A DNA stretch of 64,000 nt, taken from assembly GCA_017411385.1 (NCBI GenBank), contig JAFQQF010000006.1, positions 114,161 through 178,160 on the forward strand. Direction: 5' to 3'. The position numbers were made by a program, and so were the translations under genes. Position 1 is the stretch's first letter; each line of letters starts with the position of its first letter. The stretch comes from Ruminococcus sp. GTDB lineage: Bacteria > Bacillota > Clostridia > Oscillospirales > Acutalibacteraceae. Below, piece after piece: positions 38,977 to 64,000 of this stretch. Under the pieces are notes generated by a model. The model was not told the origin of the DNA. It did no database searches and saw only the letters and a program-made list of their open reading frames with translations.

Positions 38977-39021
38977 TACTTTTGAAGAAATCTGCCTTAT
39001 ACTTTTGCCAAAAGGTGATTT

Positions 39022-39495: not shown

Positions 39496-39524
39496 TTGAT
39501 AAATTTGCATTTATATGTTATAAT
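39496..39524 (+). promoter_or_regulatory. Promoter for ruvCAB
   Basis: TTGATA at 39496-39501, 17 bases, TATAAT at 39519-39524, ending about 50 bases ahead of the ruvC GTG start. No SOS (LexA) box of the GAACNNNNGTTC or CGAACNNNNGTTCG type was seen by eye. Confidence 0.85.
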
Positions 39525-39576
39525 GTTTCATTAGTGAAATTATGTTCGGGCAGTATGCCCAAAGGAGGGATTTGCG

Positions 39577-40086: not shown

Positions 40087-40111
40087 CAGCTAAAATAACA
40101 AGAGGTAAAAT

Positions 40112-40705: not shown

Positions 40706-40707
40706 TT

Positions 40708-41778: not shown

Positions 41779-41846
41779 CTTTAAAGACGGCTTAATGTCG
41801 TCTGAAATATAAAAATAACTCAAATTACATATAACGGAGGATTATT

Positions 41847-44062: not shown

Positions 44063-44125
44063 GCTGTTCTGCATTATTTGGAATTTGAAAGTATATGAAA
44101 ATAGTCAAAACACAGGAGAGTATAA

Positions 44126-47401: not shown

Positions 47402-47469
47402 TAAAAATTTACAAATTATCCATACATTAAGTTTTATTTGGTGTATTATTGTTGAAAGGGGGAGTCCCC

Positions 47470-48705: not shown

Positions 48706-48722
48706 ATTATGAGTGTGAATTT

Positions 48723-49442: not shown

Positions 49443-49476
49443 TACATTTATTTGTAAGGTATAGGAGAAAGTTAAA

Positions 49477-50079
49477 ATGGAGTGGAACAAAGAAAAAAAG
49501 GTGGATTACAGGTATATCTTCACTGTACCCAACATCTTAAGCTATTTCAGAATTTTGCTGATTGTGCCCTTTGTAATTCTTTTTCTCAGGGGTGAATATC
49601 TATGGAGTGCAGTCTGTATTATAACTTCGGGTCTTACAGATTGCATTGACGGATTTTTAGCCAGAAAACTCAATCAGATTACCCAGCTTGGCAAAATGCT
49701 GGACCCTGTGGCAGATAAGCTCACCTTGCTTGCTGTAGGCGTTTGCTTGTCTGTAGTTGAACCCATGATTATTCCGGTCATAATTATTCTTGTTGCAAAG
49801 GATATGCTGATGCTAATCGGTGCATCTTTGATGCTCAAAAATAAGGTTATGCCCTTTGCATCTGAGTGGTACGGCAAGGTCGGCACAGTTTGCTTCTATG
49901 TTTCAGTAGCTGCAATTGTTGTTTTTGACTTGATTTTGAAGGTTAAGCATTTTGATATTGTTTCCCTTATACTGTTGTCAATTACTGCAGTTATTATGAT
50001 ATATTCACTCATCAGATATTATCTGATTTTTAAGTCAATGATGAAAAAAGCAAAAGAAGAAAAATCAGAAGTAAAGTAA
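49477..50079 (+). CDS. pgsA: CDP-diacylglycerol-glycerol-3-phosphate phosphatidyltransferase
   Basis: 200 residues, about five membrane segments. CDP-alcohol phosphotransferase motif DCIDGFLARKLNQITQLGKM followed by LDPVADK fits D-x2-DG-x2-AR-x8-G-x3-D-x3-D. Makes phosphatidylglycerol phosphate, the route to PG and cardiolipin. AGGAGA precedes the ATG. Could be another CDP-alcohol transferase, but length and N-terminus (YIFTVPNILSYFRI) suit PgsA. Confidence 0.88.
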   Translation: MEWNKEKKVDYRYIFTVPNILSYFRILLIVPFVILFLRGEYLWSAVCIITSGLTDCIDGFLARKLNQITQLGKMLDPVADKLTLLAVGVCLSVVEPMIIPVIIILVAKDMLMLIGASLMLKNKVMPFASEWYGKVGTVCFYVSVAAIVVFDLILKVKHFDIVSLILLSITAVIMIYSLIRYYLIFKSMMKKAKEEKSEVK

Positions 50080-50111
50080 ATCTTCTTGATTTTATATAAA
50101 GGAGAACTGTT

Positions 50112-52442
50112 ATGTTATGTTCAAGATGCGGCAAACGTCCCGCAGTTGTTTTTGTTTCCAATAATCAGAACGATTCCAATACAGTCGGATATTGCCTTTC
50201 CTGTGCAAGGGAACTAGGCATTAAGCCTGTTGATGATTTGATGAAAAAGATGGGAATATCCGACGAGGACCTCAAGGCTATGGAAGAGCAGATGGGCCCT
50301 ATGATGGAAAGTCTGCAGGAGGGCGGAGATTTCTCTGAAATGATGCAAAATCTTCAGAATCCCGACGATATCGAGGAAGCAGAAAGTGCAGACGGAGAAG
50401 ATTTTACTCCCGGTGGTGCACCTGCTTTCCCAAGCTTTTTCAATAACTTTTTCGGAGGCGCTCAGAAGCCTGCAGATGCAAGCGGTTCAGACCCCAAGAA
50501 AACCAAAAAGCAGGAGAAAAAGGAAAAGAAAGAGAGAAAGTTCCTCTCACTTTACTGTGAGGATTTAACCCGCAAGGCACGTGAAGGAAGAACCGACCGT
50601 GTTATCGGCAGAGATAAAGAAATCGAGCGTGTTATCCAGATTCTCTCCAGACGTACAAAGAATAACCCCTGCCTTATTGGTGAACCCGGTGTAGGTAAAA
50701 CCGCCATAGCCGAGGGACTTGCTTTGCGTATTGCCGAGGGTAACGTACCCCAGCGACTCAGAGATAAAGAAATTCACCTTTTGGACCTTACTGCTTTGGT
50801 TGCAGGTACTCAGTTCAGAGGCCAGTTTGAAAGCCGTATCAAGGGACTTACTCAAGAGGTTAAGAATCTTGGCAACATCATCCTTTTCATTGATGAGGTT
50901 CACAACCTTGTTGGTACAGGTGATGCCGAGGGTACAATGAATGCGGCAAACATCCTAAAGCCTGCTTTGTCCCGCGGTGAAATTCAGGTTGTAGGTGCTA
51001 CCACCTTCAACGAATACAGAAAATACATCGAGAAGGACTCAGCCTTAGAGCGTCGCTTCCAGCCTGTAAAGGTAGCAGAACCTTCTGTTTCTGAGGCTAT
51101 TGAGGTGCTTGAGGGCATCAAGGATTACTATGCAATGCACCACAGAGTTGAGGTGGGCGCAGATATAATCCGCAAGGCTGTAATTTTCTCTGAGAGATAC
51201 ATCACAGACCGCTTCCTTCCCGATAAAGCCATCGACCTTCTGGACGAGGCTTGTGCTTGTGCATCTCTTCGCAACAAGGAGCGTGAGCGACACGACAAGC
51301 TCACAAATGAAAAGCACAACCTTCAGCTTGTGCAGGAGAAGCTTTCCACAGAAGAGCAGATTGACTACGAACGCCTTGCAAGTGTCAAGAGTGAGCTTGC
51401 AAAGCTTGAACAGCAGATTGCAGAGATTCCTGAGGAAGCTCTGCATACAGAGGTTACCGAGGAAGATTTGGCAAAGGTGATTGAGCTGTGGACAGGAATC
51501 CCCTCAACCCATGTTCGTGAAAACGAGCTTGCAAAGCTTGCTAATATCGAAGCACAGATGAAGGAAAAAATCATCGGTCAGGATGAAGCTGTAAAGGTGC
51601 TTGCAAATGCAATCAAAAGAAGCCGCGTGCAGATTTCTCCCAGACGCCGTCCTGCATCCTTTATCTTTGTTGGTCCCACAGGTGTAGGTAAAACCGAGCT
51701 TGTCAAGGTTCTTTCGAGTCTTCTTTTTGATACACCCGAAACCTTAATCCGACTGGATATGTCCGAGTTTATGGAGAAGCACTCCGTTTCCAAAATTATC
51801 GGTTCTCCTCCCGGATATGTAGGTTACGACGAGGCAGGTCAGGTTACTGAGAAGGTGCGTCGCCGACCCTACAGCGTTCTCCTTTTCGACGAGATTGAAA
51901 AAGCTCATCCCGATGTGCTCAATATTCTTCTGCAGATTCTTGACGAAGGCAAGCTTACAGATGCTCACGGTAGAGTTGTAAACTTCGAAAATACGGTTAT
52001 CGTTATGACAAGTAACGCTGGAAGTGAGAAGAAGGAAAACGCTCTCGGCTTTGCAAAGAGCGAAGCAGATGCTACCCGTGACAAGGTAATGAAGGCACTC
52101 TCAGAATTCCTCCGACCCGAGTTTATTGCCCGTGTTGACGAAATCCTTGTTTTCCGCCACCTTGAAAAAGAAGATTTACGCAAGATTGCTGCTCTGATGC
52201 TTTCAGAATATGTGGACACTTTAAAGGAAAAAGGCATACAGTTTACCTTTGATGTTAATGCCTGCGAGGTGCTCACAAACAAAATCACATCAGGCAGAAG
52301 CGGAGCAAGAGATTTGCGTAACATTATCCGCAAGGAAGTAGAAGAGCGTATTGCTGAAGAAATGATTGCAAGAGGTGAGGGCGGTATTATCGGCATCAAC
52401 TTTACCGCTGAAAACGGCGATGTTAAAATAGAAGTTCTTTGA
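50112..52442 (+). CDS. clpE: ClpE-like ATP-dependent unfoldase
   Basis: 776 residues. The first 35 residues form a zinc ribbon with Cys3, Cys6, Cys28 and Cys31 ([10 protein letters not shown] and [10 protein letters not shown]), as in ClpE and McsA. Two AAA domains: Walker [14 protein letters not shown] and [14 protein letters not shown] coiled-coil M region sits between them ([21 protein letters not shown]). NALGF provides an LGF loop for docking ClpP. There is no Clp N-domain. Likely heat or protein-stress responsive, but no CtsR box was recognised. A bidirectional terminator follows. Confidence 0.87.
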
Positions 52443-52461
52443 TAGATATAAGAAAATATAA

Positions 52462-52493
52462 AAAAAGACCGCTGAGCAATCAGCGGTCTTTTT
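52462..52493. terminator. Bidirectional terminator
   Basis: AAAAAGACCGCTGA, four-base loop, TCAGCGGTCTTTTT (52462-52493). Serves clpE on the plus strand and the exporter pseudogene on the minus strand. Confidence 0.92.
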
Positions 52494-52518
52494 GCGTTTA
52501 GGTGTTAAGTTATAAAAT

Positions 52519-53378
52519 TTATCTGTTAACACCGAATACTCCGATTATTATAAGTGCACAGCATATAAGCTGAGGTAAAGACATACTTTCTTTCAATAAA
52601 ATCAAGCCAGCCAGTACAGACACCACGGTAATCAGGTTGGAGAAGGAAGCGGACCTTACAGGACTTATCACCGAGGTGGAGTAGTTGTAGAGCATAAAAG
52701 CTACAATCGAAGAGGCGACGGATAAATACAGTATTGCGCCCCAGAACTCAAGAGCGCCAACAGCTGTTACAAGCTCTGTGACATAGTTGCTTCTAAGCCC
52801 GATTAATGCAATCAGATTAAATCCCACAGTGCCCACAAGGAACATAATATACGTTCTCTCAAAAGGGGAGTAGTGCTTTGATTCTGTTCGGCTTAGTATG
52901 TTAAATACTGCCGCACATAGAGTAGCCCCCAGCAAAAGTAAAATTCCGAATGGCTTGTTCTTTGCACCGTTGTCTGACAATATACTGATTACCGCATTTG
53001 AGAAACGGTAGGTTTTTCCTTCAGGAAAACAGCGGATAGAATAATCACAACCACAGGTACCAACGAAATAATAACTCCCGACATAGCACTTGAGGTGTTC
53101 TCAATTCCGTACAGCTCCAAAATAAAATACAGCAGAGGCTGAGCCAAAGACATAAGCAGAATTCTCTTTTTAGGCTTGCCTTTGAAGTTAAGCTTTACAA
53201 TGCCAAACATCCAAAGCAGATTAAGTACTGCAAAAGCTACAGTAAACCTCACCGCCAGTATAATCAGCGGATGAGCGTAAGAAAGTGCTATCTTTGAAAA
53301 CAGGAAACTGAAACCGAATATTATATTTACGATTAAAGCGGCAATAGTGCCTTTGAGTTGTTTTGATTTGTCTGTCAT
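52519..53378 (-). pseudogene. EamA/DMT family transporter, split by a frameshift
   Basis: Two adjoining frames together make one ten-helix EamA exporter. The first (53378-52989) covers the first five helices and ends QMR just after VFLKEKPTVSQ, where an intact protein continues into the fifth-helix end. The second (52980-52519) resumes with the missing GAxISI-type helix in another frame (AVISILSDNG when read upstream of its TTG) and covers the second EamA repeat. So a small frameshift, probably with a short deletion, lies near 52985-52995. It may be a true pseudogene or a sequencing error. Confidence 0.8.
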
Positions 53379-53406
53379 AATTTACTTGTGCGTTTTAGAA
53401 TGTATA

Positions 53407-54963
53407 TCAGAAAATCTTGGTTGTCCACTTGGTGCAGTCCCAGACCTCGTCAACCACATCTAGGTAAAACTCGGGCTCGTGACATATAAGCAGGATGCTT
53501 CCTCTGTATTCTCTCAGTGCACGCTTGAGCTCTTCCTTTGCATCCACATCAAGATGGTTTGTAGGCTCATCTAAGAGCAGTACGTTTGTGTCCTTATTAA
53601 TCAGCTTGCAAAGCCGTACCTTTGCCTGCTCACCGCCGCTTAATACTCTCACCTGACTTTCAATGTGTTTTGTAGTAAGTCCGCATTTTGCAAGGGCGGC
53701 ACGTACCTCGTGCTGATTGAGAGAAGGGAATTCTTTCCAGATTTCTTCAATACAAGTCACAGTCATATCACCTGTGAACTCCTGCTCAAAGTAACCTGTG
53801 AGCAGATTATCTCCAAGTTCAACCTTTCCAGAAAGTGGGGGGATGATTCCCAGAATGCTTTTGAGCAAAGTTGTCTTACCGATACCGTTGGCGCCAACCA
53901 AAGCAATCTTCTGTCCTCTTTCCATGTGGATTGTCAGAGGCTTTGACAAAGGCTCGTCATAACCGATTACAAGGTCTTCTGCTTCAAAGATAAACTTTCC
54001 GGGAGTTCTGCCGACCTTAAAGTTGAATTCAGGTTTTGGCTTCTCCTGTGCAAGCTCTATAACCTCCATTTTATCAAGGAGCTTCTGTCTGGACATAGCC
54101 ATATTTCGGGTTGATACTCTCGCTTTGTTTCTTGCCACAAAGTCCTTAAGCTCGCTAATCTCCTGTTGCTGACGTTTGAATGCCGCTTCAAGCTGAGCTT
54201 TCTTCATTGCGTGAACTTCCTCAAAATGGTAGTAATCACCAACGTAGCGGTCAAGCTTCTGATTCTCCATATGATAGATAATGTTGATAACCTCGTTGAG
54301 GAAGGGGATATCGTGAGAAATCAGAATAAATGCGTTTTCGTAGTCAATTAGGTATCGCTTCAGCCACGCAATATGCTCTTCGTCAAGATAGTTTGTGGGC
54401 TCGTCAAGGAGCAGAATATCGGGCTTTTCAAGCAAAAGCTTTGCAAGGAGAACCTTTGTCCTCTGACCGCCGCTCAAATCCGTAACATCTCTCTGAAGCC
54501 CTAAGTCTGCAAGTCCCAAAGCACGTGCAACTTCCTCAACCTTTGCATCAATTACATAGAAGTCGTGAAGCGTAAGCGCATCCTGAATGGTGCCAAGCTC
54601 CTCAAGCATTTCAGCCATTTCGTCTTCGTCAGCTTCACCCAGCTTGTCGCAGATTTCGTTCATTCGCTCTTCCATTTCAAAGAGATAGGAAAAAGCGCTT
54701 TTCAGCACATCTTCAATAGTCATTCCGGGTGTGAGCACCGTGTGCTGGTCAAGGTATCCTGCACGGACATTCTTTGACCATTCAACCTTGCCCTCGTCAG
54801 GCATAAGCTTGCCTGTAACTATATTCATAAAAGTAGATTTACCCTCACCGTTAGCACCGATAAGTCCGATATGCTCACCCTTGAGCAGGCGGAAGGATAC
54901 ATCGTCAAAAATAGCTCTGTCACCGAAACCGTGTGTCAGATGCTCAACATTAAGTATACTCAT
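53407..54963 (-). CDS. ABC-F family ATPase (ribosome-associated)
   Basis: 518 residues, two ABC domains on one chain and no membrane part. Walker A LIGANGEGKSTFMN and LVGANGIGKTTLLK; signatures LSGGQRTKVLLAK and LSGGEQAKVRLCK; both followed by DEPTN. The linker between them (residues about 240-320, KAQLEAAFKRQQQEISELKD) is the ABC-F P-site tRNA interaction motif. Closest to the YkpA/YbiT-like group by feel; whether it serves translation or antibiotic protection cannot be decided. AAGGAG precedes the ATG. Confidence 0.92.
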   Translation of the reverse strand: MSILNVEHLTHGFGDRAIFDDVSFRLLKGEHIGLIGANGEGKSTFMNIVTGKLMPDEGKVEWSKNVRAGYLDQHTVLTPGMTIEDVLKSAFSYLFEMEERMNEICDKLGEADEDEMAEMLEELGTIQDALTLHDFYVIDAKVEEVARALGLADLGLQRDVTDLSGGQRTKVLLAKLLLEKPDILLLDEPTNYLDEEHIAWLKRYLIDYENAFILISHDIPFLNEVINIIYHMENQKLDRYVGDYYHFEEVHAMKKAQLEAAFKRQQQEISELKDFVARNKARVSTRNMAMSRQKLLDKMEVIELAQEKPKPEFNFKVGRTPGKFIFEAEDLVIGYDEPLSKPLTIHMERGQKIALVGANGIGKTTLLKSILGIIPPLSGKVELGDNLLTGYFEQEFTGDMTVTCIEEIWKEFPSLNQHEVRAALAKCGLTTKHIESQVRVLSGGEQAKVRLCKLINKDTNVLLLDEPTNHLDVDAKEELKRALREYRGSILLICHEPEFYLDVVDEVWDCTKWTTKIF

Positions 54964-54994
54964 AATTACTCCTTGAAATATATCGTCTTTCGAC

Positions 54995-55023
54995 AGTATA
55001 TCATAACAGACTCTTTTTTACAA
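54995..55023 (-). promoter_or_regulatory. Promoter for the ABC-F gene
   Basis: Minus strand TTGTAA (55018-55023), 17 bases, TATACT (54995-55000), about 30 bases ahead of the ATG. No leader attenuator was seen. Confidence 0.65.
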
Positions 55024-55036
55024 CTTATTAATGTAA

Positions 55037-55074
55037 TGAAAAACAGCAGATGTCATATCAAAAACATCTGCTGT
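55037..55074 (-). terminator. Terminator after the LytTR/DUF3021 pair
   Basis: Minus strand ACAGCAGATGT (55064-55074), ten-base loop, ACATCTGCTGT (55043-55053), then TTTTC. Confidence 0.85.
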
Positions 55075-55093
55075 AAGTTTTGGTGCTTTGGGT

Positions 55094-55489
55094 TTAATCT
55101 TTGCTGTTGAGTGCTTCGTTGATTTTCTTAGCTTCAGCTTTTGCCGCAATCAGAGTTGTGATGTAAATTGCCGCATAAACGACCACAAACACAGGCAGTA
55201 CAGATATCAGTATACTCCAGAAGCTGTCGCTGTAGCCGTTTATTGCACAGGCTGTGCAGGTAATAATCAGACAGCCAACGCAATGAATAGCTGTGATAAT
55301 GGGTAAAGATATCCTTGAATTCTTGAACAATATGCTCAGCACACCAAAAAGTGCTGAAGCCACAAGCCAAACCAGAAACTCTTTGATTGTTTCGTTCCAT
55401 CCGCCGAGAATAAACATACAAATAATAGTAACGGGCATTCCGATGCCGATGCCTGAAATACAGGCTAAAACAATATCTTTTAATTTCAT
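55094..55489 (-). CDS. DUF3021 membrane protein
   Basis: 131 residues, four membrane segments (IVLACISGIGIGMPVTIICM, LVWLVASALFGVLSILF, AIHCVGCLIITCTACAI, ILISVLPVFVVVYAAIY). DUF3021 proteins are almost always encoded with a LytTR regulator, as here (12 bases after it), and probably inhibit or sense for it in the membrane. AAGGAG before the ATG. Confidence 0.88.
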   Translation of the reverse strand: MKLKDIVLACISGIGIGMPVTIICMFILGGWNETIKEFLVWLVASALFGVLSILFKNSRISLPIITAIHCVGCLIITCTACAINGYSDSFWSILISVLPVFVVVYAAIYITTLIAAKAEAKKINEALNSKD

Positions 55490-55501
55490 AATCGGTTCTC
55501 C

Positions 55502-55939
55502 TTAAATTTTACTTTTGAATTCCTTGAAATACTTTCTTGAAATAGTGAGTGTTTCCTTGCTGTTTTTTAGTTTCAGAGTGTAGTTTCCGCTGAATTCAGC
55601 CGATACAGATTTTACAAAATCAATGTTTACAATTACGCCTTTGTTAATCTGAGCAAAGGGTAGGGAAGTAAGAAACTCTTTTAATTCATATAGCTTCTGT
55701 TTTGTGTGATACACACCGTCTGTAGTAAGCACGGATACCTTACCATCGCTTGCCTCCAGATATATAATATCCTCAGCATCCACAAGATATTGTTCATCTT
55801 CCTTGTAGAGCAACAGCTTTCCGCTGTTGCTGCCTGAGTTTATAAAGCTCAGCAGAGAGCTCACTTCGTTTGAAGCAATATCACCTCTGATGATTATTTC
55901 TGTTTCACCTGTGTTCATCGGTTCTAAAGTGATTTTCAC
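55502..55939 (-). CDS. LytTR DNA-binding transcriptional regulator
   Basis: 145 residues. A short N-terminal part (about 45 residues) and then the LytTR domain: DIIYLEASDGKVSVLTTDG, LPFAQINKGVIVNIDFVKSV and LTISRKYFKEFKSK. There is no response-regulator receiver. Such stand-alone LytTR/DUF3021 pairs commonly control nearby envelope or bacteriocin-type genes. Start is GTG at 55939 with GAGGTAA before it. Possible target promoters with phased repeats lie 2-3 kb to the right. Confidence 0.92.
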   Translation of the reverse strand: MKITLEPMNTGETEIIIRGDIASNEVSSLLSFINSGSNSGKLLLYKEDEQYLVDAEDIIYLEASDGKVSVLTTDGVYHTKQKLYELKEFLTSLPFAQINKGVIVNIDFVKSVSAEFSGNYTLKLKNSKETLTISRKYFKEFKSKI

Positions 55940-55970
55940 CTGATTACCTCATTTCGTTTGTTCTGTGCTA

Positions 55971-55999
55971 ATTATATATCAAAAAAACACATTTGTCAC
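55971..55999 (-). promoter_or_regulatory. Promoter for the LytTR/DUF3021 operon
   Basis: Minus strand GTGACA (55994-55999), 17 bases, TATAAT (55971-55976), about 30 bases ahead of the GTG start and just after the 59-residue gene. Confidence 0.82.
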
Positions 56000-56013
56000 A
56001 TACTTTTAAAGCT

Positions 56014-56193
56014 TTATTCGCTTTCGAGTTTAATCAGTCTTTCTATGCTTGCACAAGCAAGACCGATGCCAAGAAGAAGTACTGCTTTTTCAACAGCTAT
56101 TGCATCCATTATCATCATAGCAACTACTGCTACACCCATTGCAAGGGAAACTGCCTTAAAAATCAGTTTAATCATTTTATTAAAGTTCTTCAT
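56014..56193 (-). CDS. Small membrane protein, 59 residues
   Basis: Starts MKNFNKMIKLIFKAVSLAMG and ends LACASIERLIKLESE. Two probable membrane segments (about 10-30 and 37-50) with a short acidic loop (MDAIAVEKA). AGGAGC lies seven bases ahead of the ATG. It begins 20 bases after the Ntn hydrolase stop on the same strand, so it is likely the second gene of that operon. No family recognised. The size, ribosome site and clean codon pattern argue that it is real. Confidence 0.72.
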   Translation of the reverse strand: MKNFNKMIKLIFKAVSLAMGVAVVAMMIMDAIAVEKAVLLLGIGLACASIERLIKLESE

Positions 56194-56213
56194 TTTTTGT
56201 TTGCTCCTAATTT

Positions 56214-57272
56214 TTATTCTATAGTATAGCTGTATGAGCTTTCAAAATTTCTGTGGAAGTAAAAGTCCAGAGCTTTTTTATCAAGGTTATATACAATGCT
56301 CCATTGAGTTTCGCTAGCATAAGAAACAGCTTCAAGACAGTCTTTCATATCCATAACGTCAGAAACGTTAGATTTAGCGTTTAGGAGTTTTTCAAATCTC
56401 TTGTGAGATTCCTCATTCCCAATACCCTGCTTGCTACCCTCGGACAGATAGTGATTTGTAACTGCCGGAGTGTCTGTCACAGTCATAACATTATCAATAT
56501 ACTCAACTACTACAGATTTACCGCTTGCATCACTAATAGCAAGATGATGAGATGTGCCGATTGAAGAGTGCATGTCGTATTCTGAGAGCAAATTAACCGC
56601 CTCCTCAACTGTGGAAGCTTTGTCAAGCAGAAGTCTTATAGCACTTGTTGTAGTAAGGTCGGGCTTCTCCGTCTGCTGATTTGTTGTGTAGTTATCTCCT
56701 GCAAGCAAATCAGCAACACAAAGCCCCATTTCGTTTATGCCATCAAGGGGTACATATACTCCGGCAATAGACATATATTTGTTACCGAAGCTTTCGGGAG
56801 TGAATCCCTCACCAAAGCCTAAAAAATCAAGCCATGTTGTAGAGTATGATTCATAACCGTCAGAGGGTTTGGTGTGAATAATCATAACGGCACCCGTAGA
56901 ACCGTTTGACCAATCGAAGTTTCTGCCCATTATTGTACCCTCTGCTGTGTTAGTGGTAAGTGTACTGCAACCAAAATCAAGGGATACGTCTTCGGGTTCA
57001 TTTTTCCAAAATCCGCCGGACATAAACGATATAAGATAAGCAGCCATTTCGCTTTCTGAGGAAGCACCGCCGTTTTGAAGGAACTCTTCAAAACCGTAGT
57101 TACCTTCATATTCCATATAGTAAAGGTTGTGTTCGAGCTTTTTCACACTTCCTGCAGCTGAAATCTTATCTGCAAACATCGCATATCCGAAAATTCCTGT
57201 TGTTATAGTAGCACTCAGGATTATTGCAACTATAATGATAATTACTGTTTTGATTTTGCTTTTCTTTTTCAT
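56214..57272 (-). CDS. Membrane-anchored linear amide hydrolase (C45/choloylglycine hydrolase-like)
   Basis: 352 residues. One N-terminal membrane anchor (VIIIIVAIILSATITTGIFGY), then an Ntn-hydrolase domain facing outside. DFGCSTLTTNTAEGTIMGRNFDW places the likely nucleophile at Cys102 after a Gly, as in acyl-CoA:6-APA acyltransferase (C45) enzymes that self-cleave at Gly-Cys; GINEMGLCVADL and NHYLS are also typical. Substrates of relatives are acyl amides, penicillins or bile salts; here unknown. AAGGTGA precedes the ATG. Confidence 0.83.
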   Translation of the reverse strand: MKKKSKIKTVIIIIVAIILSATITTGIFGYAMFADKISAAGSVKKLEHNLYYMEYEGNYGFEEFLQNGGASSESEMAAYLISFMSGGFWKNEPEDVSLDFGCSTLTTNTAEGTIMGRNFDWSNGSTGAVMIIHTKPSDGYESYSTTWLDFLGFGEGFTPESFGNKYMSIAGVYVPLDGINEMGLCVADLLAGDNYTTNQQTEKPDLTTTSAIRLLLDKASTVEEAVNLLSEYDMHSSIGTSHHLAISDASGKSVVVEYIDNVMTVTDTPAVTNHYLSEGSKQGIGNEESHKRFEKLLNAKSNVSDVMDMKDCLEAVSYASETQWSIVYNLDKKALDFYFHRNFESSYSYTIE

Positions 57273-57316
57273 AAAATCACCTTCAAGTTTTGTTTTGTTC
57301 TTTCGGAACTGTCTGT

Positions 57317-57364
57317 ATTATACGAAACCACACACCGTTTGTCATAAAGAAAACAGTGTGTGGT
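57317..57364 (-). promoter_or_regulatory. Promoter and overlapping palindrome for the Ntn hydrolase gene
   Basis: Minus strand ATGACA (57340-57345), 17 bases, TATAAT (57317-57322). A 9-bp inverted repeat, ACCACACAC at 57327-57335 and GTGTGTGGT at 57356-57364, brackets the -35 box with 20 bases between arms; it is a good operator candidate. Confidence 0.75.
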
Positions 57365-57436
57365 CAAAAATCCAAGTCAAGATGCAAAATATCAAGGGTG
57401 AAATTATATATTCGATTAAATAATCCTCTGTAAAAA

Positions 57437-57494
57437 GCCTCCCTTGCCTAAAGTGAGGTGGCAAAATCTTTGGCTTTGACGGAGGAATTGTAAA
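57437..57494 (+). repeat. Dispersed intergenic repeat, copy 2
   Basis: GCCTCCCTTGCCTAAAGTGAGG to GGAGGAATTGTAAA, a close relative of the repeat at 23867-23926; the inner part between the conserved ends differs. Confidence 0.75.
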
Positions 57495-57769
57495 TCGTTT
57501 TGTAGCGGATGATGTCCTTTATATATATAACGCCCTTTCGATTCCCATCTTGAGGCGCCCTCTCAGAGGGAGCTGTCACCGAAGATGACTGAGGAAGTAC
57601 AAAAATGGAGCGGATGATGTGCCAAAGATAGAGAAGGTCACATCTTCTCGTCAGATGGGGTGTGTAAAGGCTTTAAAACAACATCATCGCGACGGGCTAA
57701 AAACAGTCCGCAGGACTGTTTTCTTAACGCCCTTTCGATTCCCATCATCTTATTCACTCCATAAAAAAA
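57495..57769. repeat. Patchwork of short direct repeats and hairpins
   Basis: No convincing gene. TAACGCCCTTTCGATTCCCATC occurs exactly at 57528-57549 and 57725-57746. AGCGGATGATGT occurs at 57504-57515 and 57609-57620. AAAACAGTCC pairs with GGACTGTTTT at 57700-57722. GAGGGAGCTGTCACCGAAG near 57566 is of the kind repeated in clostridial intergenic DNA. A 36-codon frame on the minus strand (57743 down to 57633) lies in the repeats and is probably not a gene. Confidence 0.65.
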
Positions 57770-57842
57770 CAGCACTCGTATAGGCTACTTCTCATAAGGA
57801 TGTTTTGAATACCCTATGAAATCAGCCGATTGACGAGTGCTA
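57770..57842. repeat. Large imperfect palindrome, possible structured RNA
   Basis: AGCACTCGT at the left end pairs with ACGAGTGCT at the right end; inside, GGCT pairs with AGCC and CTCATAAGG with CCCTATGA. On the minus strand the outer arm is followed by seven U, so it could terminate or be the 3' end of a small RNA read leftward. Confidence 0.55.
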
Positions 57843-57849
57843 AGAAGAT

Positions 57850-57921
57850 GACAGTATAGCAATATGCCATGCTGTCTTTTCTTTTATCATCCCACCGATT
57901 TTTCATCGGTGGGATTTTTTC
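57850..57921 (+). terminator. Two tandem terminators before the envelope locus
   Basis: First: GACAGTAT/ATGCTGTC with inner GCA/TGC pairs (57850-57876) and TTTTCTTTT. Second: ATCCCACCGAT, five-base loop, ATCGGTGGGAT (57889-57915), then TTTTT. They isolate the right-hand locus from read-through, or end a small RNA from the repeat patch. Confidence 0.8.
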
Positions 57922-57933
57922 ATTTTAATAAAA

Positions 57934-57978
57934 CTGAAACATTTCAAAAACATCGCAAAAACATTGACAAGATATAAT
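57934..57978 (+). promoter_or_regulatory. Phased-repeat promoter, copy 1
   Basis: Three 11-bp units CTGAAACATTT, CAAAAACATCG, CAAAAACATTG (57934-57966), then TATAAT at 57973-57978. The array start is 39 bases before the -10 box, as in copies 2 and 3. Lies about 70 bases upstream of copy 2, giving two tandem promoters for the first small gene. Confidence 0.7.
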
Positions 57979-58041
57979 CTGCTTGTACGGTGAAGAAAGC
58001 GGCAAAAACACTTTCGAAAGAAATTTTTGAAATTAACAAAA

Positions 58042-58086
58042 CTCAAACATTTCTCAAAAATTTCGCAAACAACCGTAAGATATAAT
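58042..58086 (+). promoter_or_regulatory. Phased-repeat promoter, copy 2
   Basis: CTCAAACATTT, CTCAAAAATTT, CGCAAACAACC at 58042-58074 and TATAAT at 58081-58086. No -35 box resembling TTGACA, so an activator bound to the 11-bp repeats on one face of the helix probably recruits polymerase. Confidence 0.75.
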
Positions 58087-58120
58087 GAACTCACAAAATC
58101 AAGAAAAGGAGATTATTACA

Positions 58121-58519
58121 ATGAACAATAAGCAGATGGAAATGATGGCAAGAGAACACGATATGTCCGCTATTGATGCGGAAGTTGCAGAAAAAGTTGT
58201 TCAGGCGGCAGCTAATGGTGCAAAAAGCACCTATCAAAAAATCGAAGATGCTGTGGTTGGTGGTTATAAGAAAATCGAGGATAAGTTTACAGAAACATTT
58301 TTGAATGAGGATGGAACTATGAAGACCGGTAAAATTGGAGATGCGGTAGTCGAGGGCTACAAGAAAATTGAGGATGGCGTTGTAGAAGGTTATAAGAAGA
58401 TTGAAACCAGTGCCGTAGAAGGCTTCAACAAAGTTAACGATAAGATTATTGAAAAGGTATTTTCTAAGGATGGCGAGACCGTGGAGGAAACCAAGAAGAG
58501 ACTTTCCGGTGACAAATAA
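58121..58519 (+). CDS. Unrecognised protein with 11-residue amphipathic repeats
   Basis: 132 residues, no signal or membrane segment, strongly charged. Five 11-residue units: 37-47, 48-58, 79-89, 90-100 and 101-111, built on GYKKIEDxVVE. Such hendecad helices (as in synuclein, apolipoproteins and LEA proteins) often lie flat on membranes; that is inference. Open frame starts at 58085, but that ATG overlaps the -10 box; AAAAGGAG before the ATG at 58121 fixes the start. First gene of the right-end locus. Confidence 0.8.
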   Translation: MNNKQMEMMAREHDMSAIDAEVAEKVVQAAANGAKSTYQKIEDAVVGGYKKIEDKFTETFLNEDGTMKTGKIGDAVVEGYKKIEDGVVEGYKKIETSAVEGFNKVNDKIIEKVFSKDGETVEETKKRLSGDK

Positions 58520-58544
58520 TTCTGTAGCCAAGAAGAGGACGCAA

Positions 58545-58943
58545 ATGAATCAGGATACAACATTTATTTATAATTACTCGGCAAAAGAAAATAAAGAGAT
58601 TCAAGATATCAGAAGCAAATACCTTCCCCGTGAGGAAAGCAAGCTGGAAGAACTGAAGCGGTTGGATTACACTGTTCAAAACTCCGGAATGATCGAATCT
58701 CTATGTGCAGGTATCGGCGGTGTCTTAATATTTGGGCTTGGACTTTGCCTTGCAATGCAGGTGATCGGAAGTGGCGCGCTGACGACGGCACTCGGTGTTC
58801 TTCTTGGAATCATTGGTATGGTGAGTATGATCGTCGCCTATCCGATATACCGTAAGGTGTTTGGTAAAACCAAAGAAAAGCTTGCGCCGAGAATTCTCGA
58901 ACTTACAGCCGAACTTACCAGTGGAAAAAATTCTGCACTTTAA
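58545..58943 (+). CDS. Small membrane protein, paralogue 1
   Basis: 132 residues. Cytoplasmic start with KLEELKRLDYTV, two membrane segments (SLCAGIGGVLIFGLGLCLAM and LTTALGVLLGIIGMVSMIVA) and a charged tail (YPIYRKVFGKTKEKLAPRI). No family known to me. Paralogue of the gene at 59026. The ATG at 58545 follows GAGGAC; upstream codons in frame overlap the first gene. First gene in the window where GATC sites become common. Confidence 0.8.
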   Translation: MNQDTTFIYNYSAKENKEIQDIRSKYLPREESKLEELKRLDYTVQNSGMIESLCAGIGGVLIFGLGLCLAMQVIGSGALTTALGVLLGIIGMVSMIVAYPIYRKVFGKTKEKLAPRILELTAELTSGKNSAL

Positions 58944-58948
58944 CAAAA

Positions 58949-58993
58949 CTCAAACATTTCTCAAAACTTTCAAAAACAATAGTAAGCTATAAT
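58949..58993 (+). promoter_or_regulatory. Phased-repeat promoter, copy 3
   Basis: CTCAAACATTT, CTCAAAACTTT, CAAAAACAATA at 58949-58981 and TATAAT at 58988-58993; array to -10 distance again 39 bases. Its downstream leader also resembles that of copy 2 (AATTCATAAAATTAAGAAAG against AACTCACAAAATCAAGAAAA). Confidence 0.75.
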
Positions 58994-59025
58994 TAATTCA
59001 TAAAATTAAGAAAGAGGTTATCGTT

Positions 59026-59391
59026 ATGAATAAAAATGATCAGTATTTTCTCGTACAAAAGATCCGTACACAGTACACCGAAAAGGAACATACCGGCCTG
59101 GATGAACTGAAAGAACTGGATACAAAGGTTAAGCGCCCGGCTAATGTGTTCGCCTATATCTTCGGCAGCATATCCGCTATTATTATGGGCGCAGGCATGA
59201 GCCTTGTTATGACCGATATTGCAGAAACTGTGGGCATTCAGAATCCGATGCTTTACGGTATAGTAATCGGAATTATTGGTATGTTTATGGCAATCGTAAA
59301 CTATCCCATCTATAAAGGCATTCTCGGCTCTCGCCGTAAGAAGTATGCTGATAAAATCATCGCTCTCAGCGATAAGATCATGAACAAGTAA
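59026..59391 (+). CDS. Small membrane protein, paralogue 2
   Basis: 121 residues with the same layout as the 58545 gene: GLDELKELDTKVKRP, two membrane segments (VFAYIFGSISAIIMGAGMSL and LYGIVIGIIGMFMAIVNYPI) and a basic tail (GSRRKKYADKIIALSDKI). Shared positions include ELK-LD, GIIGM and YPIYK. It has its own phased-repeat promoter. AAGAGG lies ahead of the ATG. Function unknown. Confidence 0.8.
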   Translation: MNKNDQYFLVQKIRTQYTEKEHTGLDELKELDTKVKRPANVFAYIFGSISAIIMGAGMSLVMTDIAETVGIQNPMLYGIVIGIIGMFMAIVNYPIYKGILGSRRKKYADKIIALSDKIMNK

Positions 59392-59417
59392 TAACATCTG
59401 AAAAGGAGTAAATGAAA

Positions 59418-59906
59418 ATGGAAAACAGAACCAAGACTCAGCAGGAAATCGAACAGGAGATGCTCGAACTGAATGATCAGTTTGCTGCATTCCTTCACAC
59501 CAAGGGCATTGCCGCAAAGTTTAAACTGGCATTCAATAACATGGGCGAGTCTGCAAGAAAGCAGCACGCTGCTGACGTTGCCGAATTTGAAGCAGTAAAG
59601 GCTCAGTCTGCAGAAGACAACAAGGAGTTCGCAGAATTCCTTCGTACTAAGGGTATTAAAGCAAAATACAAGTTGGTTGTTGAGAATATTAAGAAGGGCG
59701 CAAAGGCTGCACCTGCCAACACCGCCGCACAGATTGCAAAGGTTCAGGCCGAAACACAGGCAGCTGTTGCCCGTGCAAACGCTATGGGTAACCCCGCGCC
59801 CGTAGTAACCGAGGTAAGTGCTGCTACCCTTGAGAATGAATTTAATGCCTTCCTGAAGTCCAAGGGACTGGACGGTAAGTATACTGTTTCTGTAACAGAA
59901 GAATAA
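59418..59906 (+). CDS. Unrecognised protein with a triplicated FxxFLxTKGI motif
   Basis: 162 residues, soluble. Three copies of a 16-residue motif: FAAFLHTKGIAAKFKL at 22-37, FAEFLRTKGIKAKYKL at 71-86 and FNAFLKSKGLDGKYTV at 142-157, joined by charged or Ala-rich helices. It may be three small helical modules. A possible ATG two codons earlier is only three bases from AAGGAG, so the second ATG is preferred. Follows the paralogue gene by 26 bases and ends at a terminator. Confidence 0.8.
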   Translation: MENRTKTQQEIEQEMLELNDQFAAFLHTKGIAAKFKLAFNNMGESARKQHAADVAEFEAVKAQSAEDNKEFAEFLRTKGIKAKYKLVVENIKKGAKAAPANTAAQIAKVQAETQAAVARANAMGNPAPVVTEVSAATLENEFNAFLKSKGLDGKYTVSVTEE

Positions 59907-59913
59907 GACCGGT

Positions 59914-59945
59914 AAGCGAAACGGCTTTTGGCCGTCTCGCTTTTC
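59914..59945 (+). terminator. Terminator before cls
   Basis: AAGCGA, A, ACGGC, loop TTTTG, GCCGT, C, TCGCTT, then TTC. One mismatch in an eleven-pair stem; the tail is short, so partial read-through into cls is possible. Confidence 0.75.
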
Positions 59946-59966
59946 GGCGTTTTATGAGGTGGTTTA

Positions 59967-61529
59967 ATGAAGCGAAAATACAGCTATTTTGACGGCAAAA
60001 AACAGACTGAACGGGAGTATTCTTATATTCCTTTCCGTTACATAGCGGCTGTTCTTATTACTCTTTTTGAAGTCCTTGCAGTAATTGGAATCGTAATTGC
60101 TTGCTGTTATTATGTTCCGTATTTTTATTTGACGGCTTGGGCAACGGAAATATTCTGCGTGATCCGCATTATAGCCTCTGATGATAACCCCGATTATAAA
60201 GTGCCGTGGCTTCTGTTTGTGCTGATAATTCCGATTGCAGGCTTTATGCTATATTTTATGTTTTATTCCAGAACTTTACAGAAACGGTTTATCAAGCGTT
60301 TGGACACATTAAAAAGCCACAGCTACAAGTACGATGACAGTGCCCTAATTGCAAAGCTGCAGGATGAAAATCCGATTGTCGCATCGCAGGCAAAGATGCT
60401 TTGCAGTATTGGAGAAGCGCATTTGTTTACCGATACCAAACAGGAATATTTTCCCCTTGGTGAAGATATGCACCGCCGCTTACTTGAAGATTTGGAAACC
60501 GCTGAAAAGTTCATCTATATGGAATACTTCATCATTGAGGAAGGCAAGTTTTGGAACTCGATACTGGAGATTCTGAAAAGAAAAGCCGCCGAAGGTGTTG
60601 AAGTCAAAGTCTTATATGACGATATCGGCTGTATGATGACACTCCCCGGCGATTACCACAAAACACTGAAATCATACGGTATTGATGCAACTCCCTTTTC
60701 ACGACTCAAAGGCAATGCAGACAGCGAGTTCAATAACCGCAGCCACCGTAAAATCACAGTTATAGACGGAAAAGTGGGATATACCGGCGGCGTTAATATT
60801 GCTGACGAATATATTAATGAGATTGTGAAATACGGTCATTGGAAGGATACTGCCCTCCGTTTGGAAGGCGAAGCGGTACGGGAACTGACAAAACTGTTCC
60901 TTGTGGATTTCGGTATCAACGTGAGAAAAATGCCGGATATCCGTGATGACCTGTATCCCAAAAATGAGGTGAAAGAACACGGATATGTCATTCCCTTCGG
61001 CGATGGTCCGCATCCGCTTTATAATCGCAGAGTTGGTAAAAGCGTAATTCAGAATATGCTCAGCGGTGCTACTCGGTATATGTGGATGACCACACCGTAT
61101 CTTATCATCGACAACGATCTGTGCCAGAGCATAGAAAATGCCGCTTTGCGTGGCGTGGATGTTCGCATTATTGTCCCACATATTCCCGACAAAAAGCTTG
61201 TCTTTGGTATGACACAAAGCTTTTACCACAGACTGATGGCGGCGGGAGTGCGAATTTATGAATACGAACCCGGCTTTGTTCACGCCAAGAGTTATCTCGC
61301 AGATGATAATCAAGCGATGATCGGCACCATCAATCTGGATTACCGCAGTCTTGTTCATCACTTTGAAAACGGTGTGTGGATGTATGATTGCGAGTCCATC
61401 AAGGACTTGAAAACCGATATGGAGGAAACCTTAAGCAAAAGCATCGAGGTTACTCCCGAAATGCTAAAAACAAATCTACTGCAGCGGTTCATCCGTGCGG
61501 TAGTCAGAATATTTGCACCAATGCTGTAA
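59967..61529 (+). CDS. cls: Cardiolipin synthase (phospholipase D family)
   Basis: 520 residues. Two N-terminal membrane segments (about 25-50 and 55-90), then two PLD domains with HKD motifs: SHRKITVIDGKVGYTGG and FVHAKSYLADDNQAMIGTIN. Joins phosphatidylglycerol molecules to cardiolipin. GAGGTGG precedes the ATG. Cardiolipin often rises in daptomycin or antimicrobial-peptide tolerance, which fits the ABC transporter genes that follow, though that link is inferred. Confidence 0.92.
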   Translation: MKRKYSYFDGKKQTEREYSYIPFRYIAAVLITLFEVLAVIGIVIACCYYVPYFYLTAWATEIFCVIRIIASDDNPDYKVPWLLFVLIIPIAGFMLYFMFYSRTLQKRFIKRLDTLKSHSYKYDDSALIAKLQDENPIVASQAKMLCSIGEAHLFTDTKQEYFPLGEDMHRRLLEDLETAEKFIYMEYFIIEEGKFWNSILEILKRKAAEGVEVKVLYDDIGCMMTLPGDYHKTLKSYGIDATPFSRLKGNADSEFNNRSHRKITVIDGKVGYTGGVNIADEYINEIVKYGHWKDTALRLEGEAVRELTKLFLVDFGINVRKMPDIRDDLYPKNEVKEHGYVIPFGDGPHPLYNRRVGKSVIQNMLSGATRYMWMTTPYLIIDNDLCQSIENAALRGVDVRIIVPHIPDKKLVFGMTQSFYHRLMAAGVRIYEYEPGFVHAKSYLADDNQAMIGTINLDYRSLVHHFENGVWMYDCESIKDLKTDMEETLSKSIEVTPEMLKTNLLQRFIRAVVRIFAPML

Positions 61530-61544
61530 AAAAGGAGAAATATT

Positions 61545-62447
61545 ATGAACGCTATAGAAATTAAAAATCTTTCTAAAAGCTTTCGCACCATGTATGCGGT
61601 GGATCATCTGAATATGACCGTTCCCGTAGGCGCCATTTACGGTTTCATCGGCGAGAACGGTTCAGGTAAATCCACAACTATGAAGCTAATTTGCGGACAC
61701 CTGGTTCCCGACTACGGTGATATTAAGTTGTTCGGCAAGGATTATACCGATCCCGGTGTCCGTGTAAGAGTGGGCGCACTTATTGAAAATGCCGGATGCT
61801 TCCCCGGGTCGAGTGTATATCAGAACCTGAAGATGCAGTGCATCAATCTCGGTATCGAAAACGCTGACGAGGAAATCCATCGTGTCCTTGAAATTGTTCG
61901 TATGGAGGACAATGCAAACATTAAGTTTAAGAGTTGTTCTCTCGGTATGAAGCAGAGAATCGGTATCGCAATGGCGCTCCTTGGCGATCCTGCGCTTCTC
62001 ATTCTGGACGAGCCTATCAACGGACTTGATACAGACGGTATGAGAATTATGCGAGAAATACTTGTGGATATCACGCAGAAGTACGGTTGCACCGTTCTCA
62101 TCTCTTCCCATATTCTCGGTGAACTTGAAAAGATTGCAACACACTACGGCATTATCCGTCAGGGCAAGATGATTATGGAGCTTTCCGCAGAAGAAATGGA
62201 TTCAAGGGCTCAGGTGTTCGTATCACTTAAAACAAAGGATATGAACGGTGCTAAGGCACTTTTGGAATCAAAGTTTGCGGATGTTCGCATTGAAGATGAT
62301 TATATTCGTGTTTATGACGTGGACGATACAGCGGCTATTGTTGATTACATGATGAAAAACGGTCACGTTGTCAGCGAACTGAAAAAGAACAAGATTGGTC
62401 TCGAAGAATACTACATCGAACTGATGTCAGCAAAGGAGGAGAAGTAA
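61545..62447 (+). CDS. BcrA-type ABC transporter ATPase 1
   Basis: 300 residues. Walker A GENGSGKSTTMKLI, signature SLGMKQRIGIAMALLGD and Walker B LLILDEPINGLD (Ile where Thr is usual), with the C-terminal regulatory extension of bacitracin/lantibiotic transporters. It pairs with the permease starting one base after its stop. AAGGAGAAA precedes the ATG. Confidence 0.92.
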   Translation: MNAIEIKNLSKSFRTMYAVDHLNMTVPVGAIYGFIGENGSGKSTTMKLICGHLVPDYGDIKLFGKDYTDPGVRVRVGALIENAGCFPGSSVYQNLKMQCINLGIENADEEIHRVLEIVRMEDNANIKFKSCSLGMKQRIGIAMALLGDPALLILDEPINGLDTDGMRIMREILVDITQKYGCTVLISSHILGELEKIATHYGIIRQGKMIMELSAEEMDSRAQVFVSLKTKDMNGAKALLESKFADVRIEDDYIRVYDVDDTAAIVDYMMKNGHVVSELKKNKIGLEEYYIELMSAKEEK

Positions 62448-62448
62448 C

Positions 62449-63285
62449 ATGACAAGAGAACTTAAATTTCGCAACCCGAGCTTTTCGGAGAGAATTAAAG
62501 GTATGCTTGGAGTGGACTTTTACCGCCTTTTCCATACCCCTATGTTTTATATTTTCTTATGCATTGCCGCTATCATTCCTGCAATGGTTTCAGCGATGAC
62601 CATGATGCCAGACCAAAACGGCAATACGATGGAACCTCTCTATTCCAATGTGTGGCAGATCATTGCCGCAACCAAGTCGCTTTACGTAATCGAAACCATT
62701 GCCGATTATGCTAATATGAATATGGTGTTTATTTTCGGCGGTATTATGGTGTCAATTTTTATTGGTCACGACTATAAATCCGGCTATGTAAAGCAGCTCT
62801 TCACAACCCACGCAAAAAAGCAGGACTATATGATCTCCAAGAGTCTTGTATGCGCTTTTGCAATGGCGTGTATGTGCATTACTTATTTCATTGGTGGTAC
62901 AGTGGGCGGTTTGCTTGTAGGATACGAAACAACTGTCAATGTGGGCTCATTACTTATTGCTATTCTCGGAAAGATTATTATGTCACTCGGCTGGGCAAGC
63001 CTTTACACCTTCCTCAACGTGATCTTCAGAAGATATTTCGGTATTTCCGTGGCATCATCCTTCTTCTTTGGTACGGGTATACTGATTATCGGAGCTGCAG
63101 CAATCGTTGAAAACCTTAAGATTCCTACGGCATTTCTCAACATTTTCCTCTACGGAGCATCGGTAAATGCAAACCTTTCAAGCGGTATCGGCTCTTTGCT
63201 TATCTGCATTGTAGTGTCGGTTGCTTGGGCGGTAATCTATAACGTAGCAGGCACACGACTTCTAAATAAGTGTGATGTGTATTAA
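62449..63285 (+). CDS. ABC-2 type permease of the BcrB/LanFEG kind
   Basis: 278 residues, six membrane segments. The N-terminus has the FYRLFHTPMFYIFL entry helix and the FIGHDYKSGYVKQLF coupling loop common in antimicrobial-peptide and lantibiotic-immunity permeases. The ATPase genes flank it on both sides; a second permease may lie beyond the edge. Confidence 0.88.
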   Translation: MTRELKFRNPSFSERIKGMLGVDFYRLFHTPMFYIFLCIAAIIPAMVSAMTMMPDQNGNTMEPLYSNVWQIIAATKSLYVIETIADYANMNMVFIFGGIMVSIFIGHDYKSGYVKQLFTTHAKKQDYMISKSLVCAFAMACMCITYFIGGTVGGLLVGYETTVNVGSLLIAILGKIIMSLGWASLYTFLNVIFRRYFGISVASSFFFGTGILIIGAAAIVENLKIPTAFLNIFLYGASVNANLSSGIGSLLICIVVSVAWAVIYNVAGTRLLNKCDVY

Positions 63286-63300
63286 GGAGGTCGAAACAAT

Positions 63301-64000
63301 GAACGCAGTTGAAATAAAAAACCTATCTAAAAACTTCGGCCCCAAGCAGGCGGTGTGTGGACTTGATATGACCGTACCGATGGGTGCATTTTATGGATTT
63401 ATCGGTGAGAACGGCTCGGGCAAATCCACTACCGAAAAAATGATCTGTGGTCTGATCCCTACAAGCGGCGGATCAATCAAACTGTACGGAAAGGATTATA
63501 CGGATGAAGCTGTGAGAGCAAAAATGGGTGTTCTCATCGAATCTCCCGGTTGTTTCCCGGGTCTTACCGTTTGGGATAATATGATGCTTCAAGCGGCAAA
63601 TCTCAGCATTCCGAATGCCGAGCAGGAAGTCATTAAGGTTCTCAAAATGGTGAGAATGGAAGGAGCCGCAGGAAACAAATACAAAAACTGTTCCCTTGGT
63701 ATGAAACAGAGAGTTGGCATTGCTATGGCACTTCTCGGCGATCCTACACTTCTCGTGCTGGACGAACCTCTCAATGGTCTTGACGCTGACGGTATGAGAA
63801 TTATGCGCGAGGTGTTTACTGACATTATTAAGGACGGAAAGCGCAGTATTGTCGTATCTTCCCATCTGCTTGGCGAACTGCAAAAGGTCGCTACTCATTA
63901 CGGTATCATCCGTCACGGTAAAATGATCTGCGAGATGACGGCGGACGAGCTTGATGCAAGTTGCCGTACTTATATTGCACTAAAAGCCGAAGAAATGAGC
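63301..64000 (+). CDS. BcrA-type ABC transporter ATPase 2, partial
   Basis: Open to the right edge, so the last part is missing; 233 residues are visible. Starts MNAVEIKNLSKNFGPKQAV; Walker A GENGSGKSTTEKMI, signature SLGMKQRVGIAMALLGD, Walker B LLVLDEPLNGLD. A clear paralogue of the 61545 gene (same SSHLLGELQKVATHYGIIR end). AAGGAGGTCGAAACA precedes the ATG. Two ATPases flanking a permease suggests either a LanF-type pair or two transporters in series. Confidence 0.9.

Follow-up and report, generated by a model that had tools for sequence, protein, structure and literature searches.

In the passages of Rusinov et al. 2015 drawn on here (PMC4687349), avoidance of a restriction site is described as outliving the loss of the restriction-modification (R-M) system, and in many of these cases a close relative has the system; GATC is named there as an outlier, and the threshold is a Kr of 0.78. 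A second described group that bears on the present locus comprises the Tn4451/TndX-like integrative mobilizable elements (IMEs), which have one serine recombinase (Resolvase, Recombinase, zinc ribbon and DUF4368 domains), a MobA/VirD2-type relaxase and a very short junction repeat. Both known kinds of phenomenon are unusually clearly shown in a 64,000-nucleotide stretch of a Ruminococcus sp. genome (assembly GCA_017411385.1), which we call the window and which covers positions 114161-178160 of contig JAFQQF010000006.1 (C13), reaching that contig's end. We consider it roughly 90% probable that the window records a GATC-avoiding chromosome into which an IME of about 20 kb was inserted at position 57,781, with cargo not yet purged of GATC.

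The locus resembles the avoidance treated by Rusinov et al. 2015 (PMC4687349) in that a palindromic site is strongly underrepresented and matching genes occur in relatives, although their Kr is a different statistic from the Markov ratio used here; it differs in that the depletion exposes a mobile element as a gene-scale island, a use that does not appear in the passages of that study drawn on here. The element resembles the Tn4451/TndX-like IMEs in all of the respects named above. Its junction word is GTAT, with AT as the core by the centre of the dyad, whereas the core of Tn4451 is GA.

The GATC step and the mobilizable element

By machine count the window contains 30 GATC sites. The first-pass annotation had counted nine by eye in the first 58.6 kb and 21 in the last 5.3 kb, and both numbers hold, as does the roughly 25-fold change in density; a single position needed correction (42600 for 42601, the others being 5054, 14051, 23207, 24722, 26465, 29243, 45520 and 45897). 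Corrected with a second-order Markov model, the frequencies on the two sides are not similar: positions 1-58,600 have 9 sites against 204 expected (ratio 0.04) and positions 58,601-64,000 have 21 against 24 (0.87), while G+C is flat across the step (0.438 vs 0.439). The maximum-likelihood change point is at 58,690 and raises the log-likelihood by 34.7; when the 30 sites were scattered at random 2000 times, no placement gained more than 10.6. An artefact of composition or codon usage was ruled out as the source of the step by a synonymous-codon permutation null that preserves proteins and codon usage, under which the left part has 8 sites where 179.9 are expected (standard deviation 9.9), whereas 22 sites in the right end compare with 19.9 (standard deviation 3.5); the count is 22 instead of 21 because overlapping open reading frames (ORFs) count one site twice. 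The ORFs for this null were picked mechanically (at least 150 aa, ATG start), and some are possibly spurious.

The foreign DNA begins neither at the change point nor near 58.6 kb, where the first-pass annotation had placed the edge of a 5.3-kb acquired piece. The true boundary is 57,781/57,782, 909 bp to the left of the element's first GATC, and the acquired piece is about 20 kb long. For the GATC-free 909 bp about 3 sites are expected from 21 in 6.2 kb, and a hand Poisson estimate gives a chance of about 5% of finding none; this is mildly unusual, and we take it as chance. The rest of the element lies on a second contig of the assembly (C14). What led to C14 was the order of the cargo's next genes in a related metagenome-assembled genome (MAG; locus L055), whose histidine kinase is 86% identical to the one at C14:48259-49323. 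Read in reverse, C14 overlaps window 62,619-64,000 (1382 bp), the last 549 bp identically and the first 833 bp with 104 differences. The IME thus consists of window 57,782-64,000 plus C14:37,518-52,579 (read from 52579 down to 37518) minus the overlap, or about 19.9 kb. The part on C14 brings the rest of the cargo and, beyond it, a DUF6076 protein, a replication-type ATPase (AAA_25), a MobA/VirD2 relaxase and a large serine recombinase with DUF4368; a TetR-like regulator, recognized below Pfam cut-offs, lies there as well. Type IV secretion families were absent from the Pfam-scanned ORFs of the element, a scan that took in not every ORF of an element whose middle is known via two contig ends only. 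We call the element an IME on the basis of its own site-specific recombinase, a relaxase, defined ends and an empty site in relatives.

The empty site is seen in two relatives. In G020 and G028 (loci L205 and L206) the window genes from 57.3 kb back to 40.1 and 41.8 kb, respectively, follow in one order (tblastn, matches above 45% identity), and 1.5-1.7 kb past them comes the SecB-like 134-aa gene of C14:36956-37357 (75 and 90% amino acid identity), then a dockerin gene; tRNA-Gly(tcc) is present at both sites. Since these genomes join the left genes to C14 genes, C13 and C14 are adjacent when the element is absent. Of 39 other same-genus genomes, 3 have the last resident gene, of the AAT/CBAH family, at 61-77% identity, and 2 more have it at 34-36%. 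We regard the right end as acquired because two relatives have the site without it and because a recombinase and a relaxase lie within it.

Two other accounts of the step were weighed. The position at the end of a contig, in an assembly of 62 contigs (2.11 Mb, 93% complete) with 2.29% contamination, would suit an assembly or binning chimera with another species' DNA, and so would the 104 differences within the 1382-bp overlap. Against this, the left flanks of the window and C14 are adjacent in two relatives, the element ends pair as one attP and the contigs share 549 bp exactly; because chance joining would not yield synteny, attP and exact overlap together, we reject a chimera as very improbable. 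Vertical inheritance with local relaxation, in which resident DNA kept its GATC (for example at sites protected or needed by proteins), agrees with the unchanged G+C at the step and with CATG and GGCC being low on either side of it. It is slightly less probable still, as the segment is missing at the site in two relatives, its GATC content is at the synonymous-codon expectation, and its cardiolipin synthase gene (cls), shared by 4 of 35 same-genus genomes, is only 43-45% identical in them, yet occurs at 91% in L055 and at 65-84% in the other 79 cargo loci kept for comparison, in MAGs of other names.

The insertion of an IME into a GATC-avoiding chromosome therefore remains the reading that we favor. 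Because the GATC step marks the element, its ends can be read to the base pair and two relatives have the empty site, a single tetranucleotide can flag such arrivals; in strongly site-avoiding genomes it can reveal those missed by G+C (0.438 vs 0.439 here).

Attachment sites and terminator hairpins

When the flanks of the element are rejoined they form the terminator hairpin of tRNA-Gly(tcc), at -26.0 kcal/mol over 50 nt, and none of 300 shuffles was as low. GTAT is found at both junctions (57,778-57,781 and C14:37,518-37,521). The rejoined element ends (attP) form a near-perfect palindrome: about its centre, 22 of 25 positions are complementary, which none of 2000 shuffles equalled; the attP of A118 is described as pseudo-palindromic in the part of PMC3783163 drawn on here. 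Taken alone, the best even-centred dyad of the target site (attB) is unremarkable (325 of 2000 shuffles), and its centre is half a base off because the hairpin loop has five bases.

The scenario that we favor begins with long exposure to GATC-specific restriction, through which the chromosome would have lost nearly all of its GATC. The cargo would have come from a lineage with ordinary GATC and would not yet have lost the word. The large serine recombinase would have used the intrinsic-terminator hairpin directly after tRNA-Gly(tcc) as the attB for its palindromic attP, with crossover in the hairpin loop leaving GTAT at each junction and one hairpin arm on each side. Between cells the element would move by conjugation.

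Terminators may serve as targets beyond this locus. Matches to the recombinase (E <= 0.001) occur in 48 of 59 other genomes of the genus, six of them near full length at 65-70% identity. In G035, a 17,853-bp element, with a likeness in backbone that was read from its ORFs, lies in the loop of a hairpin about 14 bp past a gene that is oadA-like as read from sequence (-19.9 kcal/mol, 0 of 300 shuffles as low). A hairpin target was found for two of the three elements with both ends known, the present one and that of G035 but not that of G002 (12,945 bp), where 161 of 300 shuffles fold at least as low. By a score written after the flanks had been seen, the right flank resembles the 3' half of a terminator in five of seven elements; of 5000 random positions in each sequence, 87-202 do. 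The seven relatives' loci that were scanned have no tRNA in the neighbourhood of the recombinase.

In the passages of PMC10083194 drawn on here, DUF4368 is frequent in a clade of multi-targeting enzymes, TndX-like ones among them, and one example motif is T/A-enriched at its ends. A figure legend of the review PMC5704250 places serine-recombinase attB sites within a gene, whereas the present element and that of G035 occupy terminator-like hairpins. A limited literature search found no terminator-targeting serine recombinases; the parts of PMC5704250 drawn on do not mention "terminator", nor those of PMC10083194 "hairpin" or "terminat". We tentatively propose, at a probability well short of even, that this group of DUF4368 recombinases homes on the loops of intrinsic terminators, whose A- and T-tract arms, by making a pseudo-palindrome of the DNA, would offer a safe intergenic landing pad and whose half-hairpins would bracket the element. 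A preference for palindromes of the form A-tract, core, T-tract would make terminators natural targets, and general terminator targeting, if true, would explain how a promiscuous recombinase spares genes.

By eye, the empty sites of G020 and G028 also have a hairpin after the tRNA, of a sequence that differs from the one here. Window 57440-57750 contains one 144-bp intergenic unit with pieces of the tRNA-Gly 3' end, and two tandem copies (about 81% identity) stand at the empty site of G028 (L206:16057-16381), where the units include a terminator-like hairpin. These units may be scars of earlier insertions.

Possible causes of the avoidance

That the host genome avoids GATC, as the first-pass annotation had supposed, is borne out well beyond the window. 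In an 866-kb genome sample there are 441 GATC sites against 2753 expected, the lowest ratio among the 16 palindromic tetramers, and a two-state segmentation with rates set by hand divides the sample into 12 GATC-rich segments (75.9 kb at 2.8/kb) and another 790 kb at 0.29/kb. In a 1.09-Mb sample without the rich segments, no other of the 256 tetramers is as depleted as GATC (312 vs 3064, ratio 0.10), a value that is partly so by construction because the rich segments were removed first. The ratio over C13 is 0.06. Contigs of this genome shorter than 3 kb were read as N.

The GATC-cutting restriction system, DpnII/MboI-like or otherwise, and the GATC methylase that had been put forward with this supposition were not found. 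Profiles for the D12, N6_N4, C5, DpnII and DpnI families (PF02086, PF01555, PF00145, PF04556 and PF06044) gave no match in the 93%-complete genome, PF05869 and other families being outside the search. A tblastn search with the congeners' enzymes described below returned nothing below E = 0.2 over 1.09 of the 2.11 Mb, and no MutH-type nuclease was seen by this means over the same portion. No methylase was present among the element proteins scanned. An explanation of the DpnI type was also rejected, with 0 of 40 genus genomes over the profile cut-off and two below it, neither of them this genome; the search had no positive control, because none of its 14 control genomes matched. Deamination of methylated GATC is not favored (GATT and AATC at only 1.19 of expectation, no C5 methylase), although a Markov ratio cannot exclude it.

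Congeners do carry systems of the DpnII and Sau3AI-MutH types. Among the 59 genomes searched, G032 alone has a DpnII nuclease, and a D12 methylase lies about 0.8 kb from it; in G015 a D12 methylase has directly after it a nuclease of the MutH family, whose 26.3 bits exceed the cut-off of 23. From their families both sets are predicted to be GATC-specific. D12 enzymes are not all GATC-specific. In 36 same-genus genomes of the 59, RRGATCYY ranges from 15 to 529 per Mb (by rounded genome sizes), with 26 genomes below 150 and 10 above, and a D12 adenine methylase is present in 12 of the 26 depleted genomes and 1 of the 10 others (Fisher p = 0.06, Mann-Whitney p = 0.16).

We think it most likely that the near-total loss of GATC came from long exposure to a GATC-specific restriction system. 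Whether such a system is still active here is a separate question, which leaves the insertion of the IME untouched. An active system, unassembled or of an unsearched family, is unproven, and we put it somewhat short of even: the 93% completeness and the small contigs read as N leave room for one, congeners have D12 with DpnII or MutH-type nucleases, and the depletion is strong (0.06 over C13), but neither the profile searches nor the tblastn search found one. A system since lost, with the avoidance now maintained by nothing, is about as likely, at close to even. It matches the pattern in the passages of Rusinov et al. 2015 (PMC4687349) in which avoidance outlives R-M loss and the system is found in a close relative, but the same absence also fits an unassembled system, and the depletion has no visible decay (8 sites against 180 expected in the window ORFs).

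Several observations count against our reading of the locus as a whole: (i) no read or contig spans the element, C13 and C14 both ending inside it; (ii) strain variants or a tandem pair of copies may be involved, given the 104 differences in the 833 bp that precede the exact overlap; (iii) in a third relative (G026) the last three left genes are followed, on a 6.6-kb contig, by 3.3 kb with neither a C14 gene nor an element gene, so that the site is arranged otherwise there; (iv) the mobilization half of the element holds only half of the expected GATC (14 vs 29.0); (v) across the genus, the presence of a D12 methylase goes only weakly with GATC depletion and (vi) as no GATC system was found in the genome itself, restriction is a cause that we infer.

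The surviving GATC sites are nearly all in the frame GAT|C, with 8 of 8 in ORFs of window 1-57781 (45% expected) and 23 of 31 in C13:9400-171900 (42% expected). Other words are also depleted in window 1-57750 (CATG 0.21, GGCC 0.21, CTAG 0.19, CCGG 0.35, GCGC 0.36), as if several restriction systems had acted.

Graded depletion, cargo and other islands

Under the codon null the cargo is at expectation in the window (22 vs 19.9, ratio 1.11) and on C14 (18 vs 19.7, 0.91; the 1.4-kb C13/C14 overlap is counted twice in these cargo figures), and the mobilization half is at 0.48; cargo and mobilization half differ with a binomial p of 0.01. The first-pass picture of a recent, unadapted right end accordingly stands as regards acquisition but holds only in part as regards adaptation, the mobilization half being depleted about twofold. 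Circulation of the backbone in GATC-avoiding congeners would explain this, relatives of the recombinase being common in the genus. Resident flanks are at 0.04 and, for C14:20001-37503, 0.02 (1 site vs 41.8 in ORFs; 5 vs 58.7 over all bases), and resident DNA overall is at 0.02-0.07. Other GATC-rich segments lie between these extremes: 0.41 for the MmeI-type IIG gene, 0.68 for C37, 0.69 for C24, 0.70 for C25, 0.73 for C14:10-20 kb (one ORF) and 0.83 for C7. The gradation suggests a clock of relative residence. That GATC density in word-avoiding hosts would date each arrival is a proposal that we make jointly with terminator homing and hold just as tentatively. In the element CATG (0.28) and GGCC (0.23) are low and GCGC is near normal (0.89, against 0.46 in the host), so the source lineage may have shunned some of the same words.

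Table 1. Features of the window and of the C14 part of the element.
Feature	Position	Strand	Basis or remarks
GATC-depleted resident chromosome (9 GATC, ~201 expected)	1..57781		Markov and codon null; order at ~41.8-57.3 kb kept in G020, G028
Last resident gene before the element, AAT/CBAH family, 352 aa	56214..57272	-	Pfam PF03417, PF02275
Left target half: inverted copy of part of tRNA-Gly 3' end and left terminator-hairpin arm; GTAT at 57778-57781	57734..57781		
Left 6.2 kb of IME	57782..64000	+	549 bp exact C14 overlap, two empty sites, GATC at expectation
Element end (P' arm), inverted repeat of recombinase-side end on C14	57782..57830		starts AGGCTACTTCTCATAAGGATGTTTT
Three copies of 89-bp promoter-like repeat (57910, 58018, 58925), ahead of cargo genes	57910..59013	+	65-82% to reference copy
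Cargo small protein, 144 aa	58085..58519	+	no family
Cargo small protein, ~132 aa, membrane-like by look; contains first GATC (58691)	58545..58943	+	no family
21 GATC sites, ordinary density	58,691..63,928 (site starts 58,691 to 63,925)		machine count
Cargo small protein, 121 aa, membrane-like by look	59026..59391	+	no family
Cargo protein, 164 aa	59412..59906	+	no family above cut-off
Cardiolipin synthase-type phospholipase D (cls), 520 aa, cargo	59967..61529	+	PF13091, PF00614, PF13396; TIGR04265 over cut-off
ABC transporter ATPase, cargo	61545..62447	+	best NCBIfam lantibiotic-protection TIGR03740, below cut-off
ABC-2 type permease, cargo	62449..63285	+	Pfam, below cut-off
Second ABC transporter ATPase, cargo, truncated by contig end, completed on C14	63272..64000	+	
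Large serine recombinase (Resolvase, Recombinase, zinc ribbon, DUF4368)	L175:17606-19228	-	PF00239, PF07508, PF13408, PF14287
Relaxase	C14 part of element		PF03432, 8.9e-36

Together with the small proteins, cls, ABC ATPases and permeases, the cargo includes a two-component pair, a PhoR/PnpS-like kinase and a response regulator (both below the cut-offs of those names), as well as the TetR-like regulator, and is probably an envelope-stress or peptide-defence set. Of 315 loci, 80 were kept for the cargo comparison, mostly ruminant-gut MAGs by name, and none of these 80 could be fixed as the donor. The nearest, L055 (91% at the amino acid level), has a GATC ratio of 0.55. Ratios of 0.75-1.19 with low GGCC (0.05-0.31) were found for the whole loci L056, L057, L058, L059 and L109, all of which except L059 also have lowish CATG (0.08-0.45), and some loci are GATC-poor (e.g. 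L063 at 0.09 and L073 at 0.02). At the nucleotide level, for alignments above 300 bp only, window 57889-58278, which contains the first two copies of the 89-bp repeat, matches L058 at 86.7%. In this goat-cecum MAG (L058:5265-7607) two genes read from sequence, one resembling a C5 methylase and the other possibly a nuclease, stand at about 1-3 kb from the same cargo.

The idea that every GATC-rich segment is mobile did not come out cleanly. Segments that fit are C37 (L035, 1-19329), GATC-rich over the whole contig and carrying a relaxase, an ArdC-type anti-restriction protein, a D5-like primase, TniQ and a TnsB-like protein; C24 (L025, 5573-14273), a defence island with PDC-M11A, a TIR-like protein and Lamassu LmuA/LmuB; C25 (L026/L179, 13647-35630), where a tyrosine integrase adjoins an island with a 3131-aa ORF and with genes that, from their sequence, resemble phosphatases and kinases; and the GATC-rich stretch at the other end of C13 (L002, 3263-6010), which encodes an MmeI-family type IIG restriction enzyme-methyltransferase. 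On C7 and C14:10-20 kb the genes look instead like those of secreted proteins, as judged from the first ORF residues only. This comparison leaves out C55, C32, C50 and C60, which are not annotated.

A phage-like cassette at window 14891-18465, between uvrA- and thyX-like genes, encodes a tail-fibre-like protein of 715 aa, an endolysin with a dockerin-like tail and a holin (the names uvrA, thyX and dockerin being read from sequence). The first-pass annotation had described it as free of GATC and so old or home-grown; it has 0 sites against 9.8 expected under the codon null, which fits long residence.

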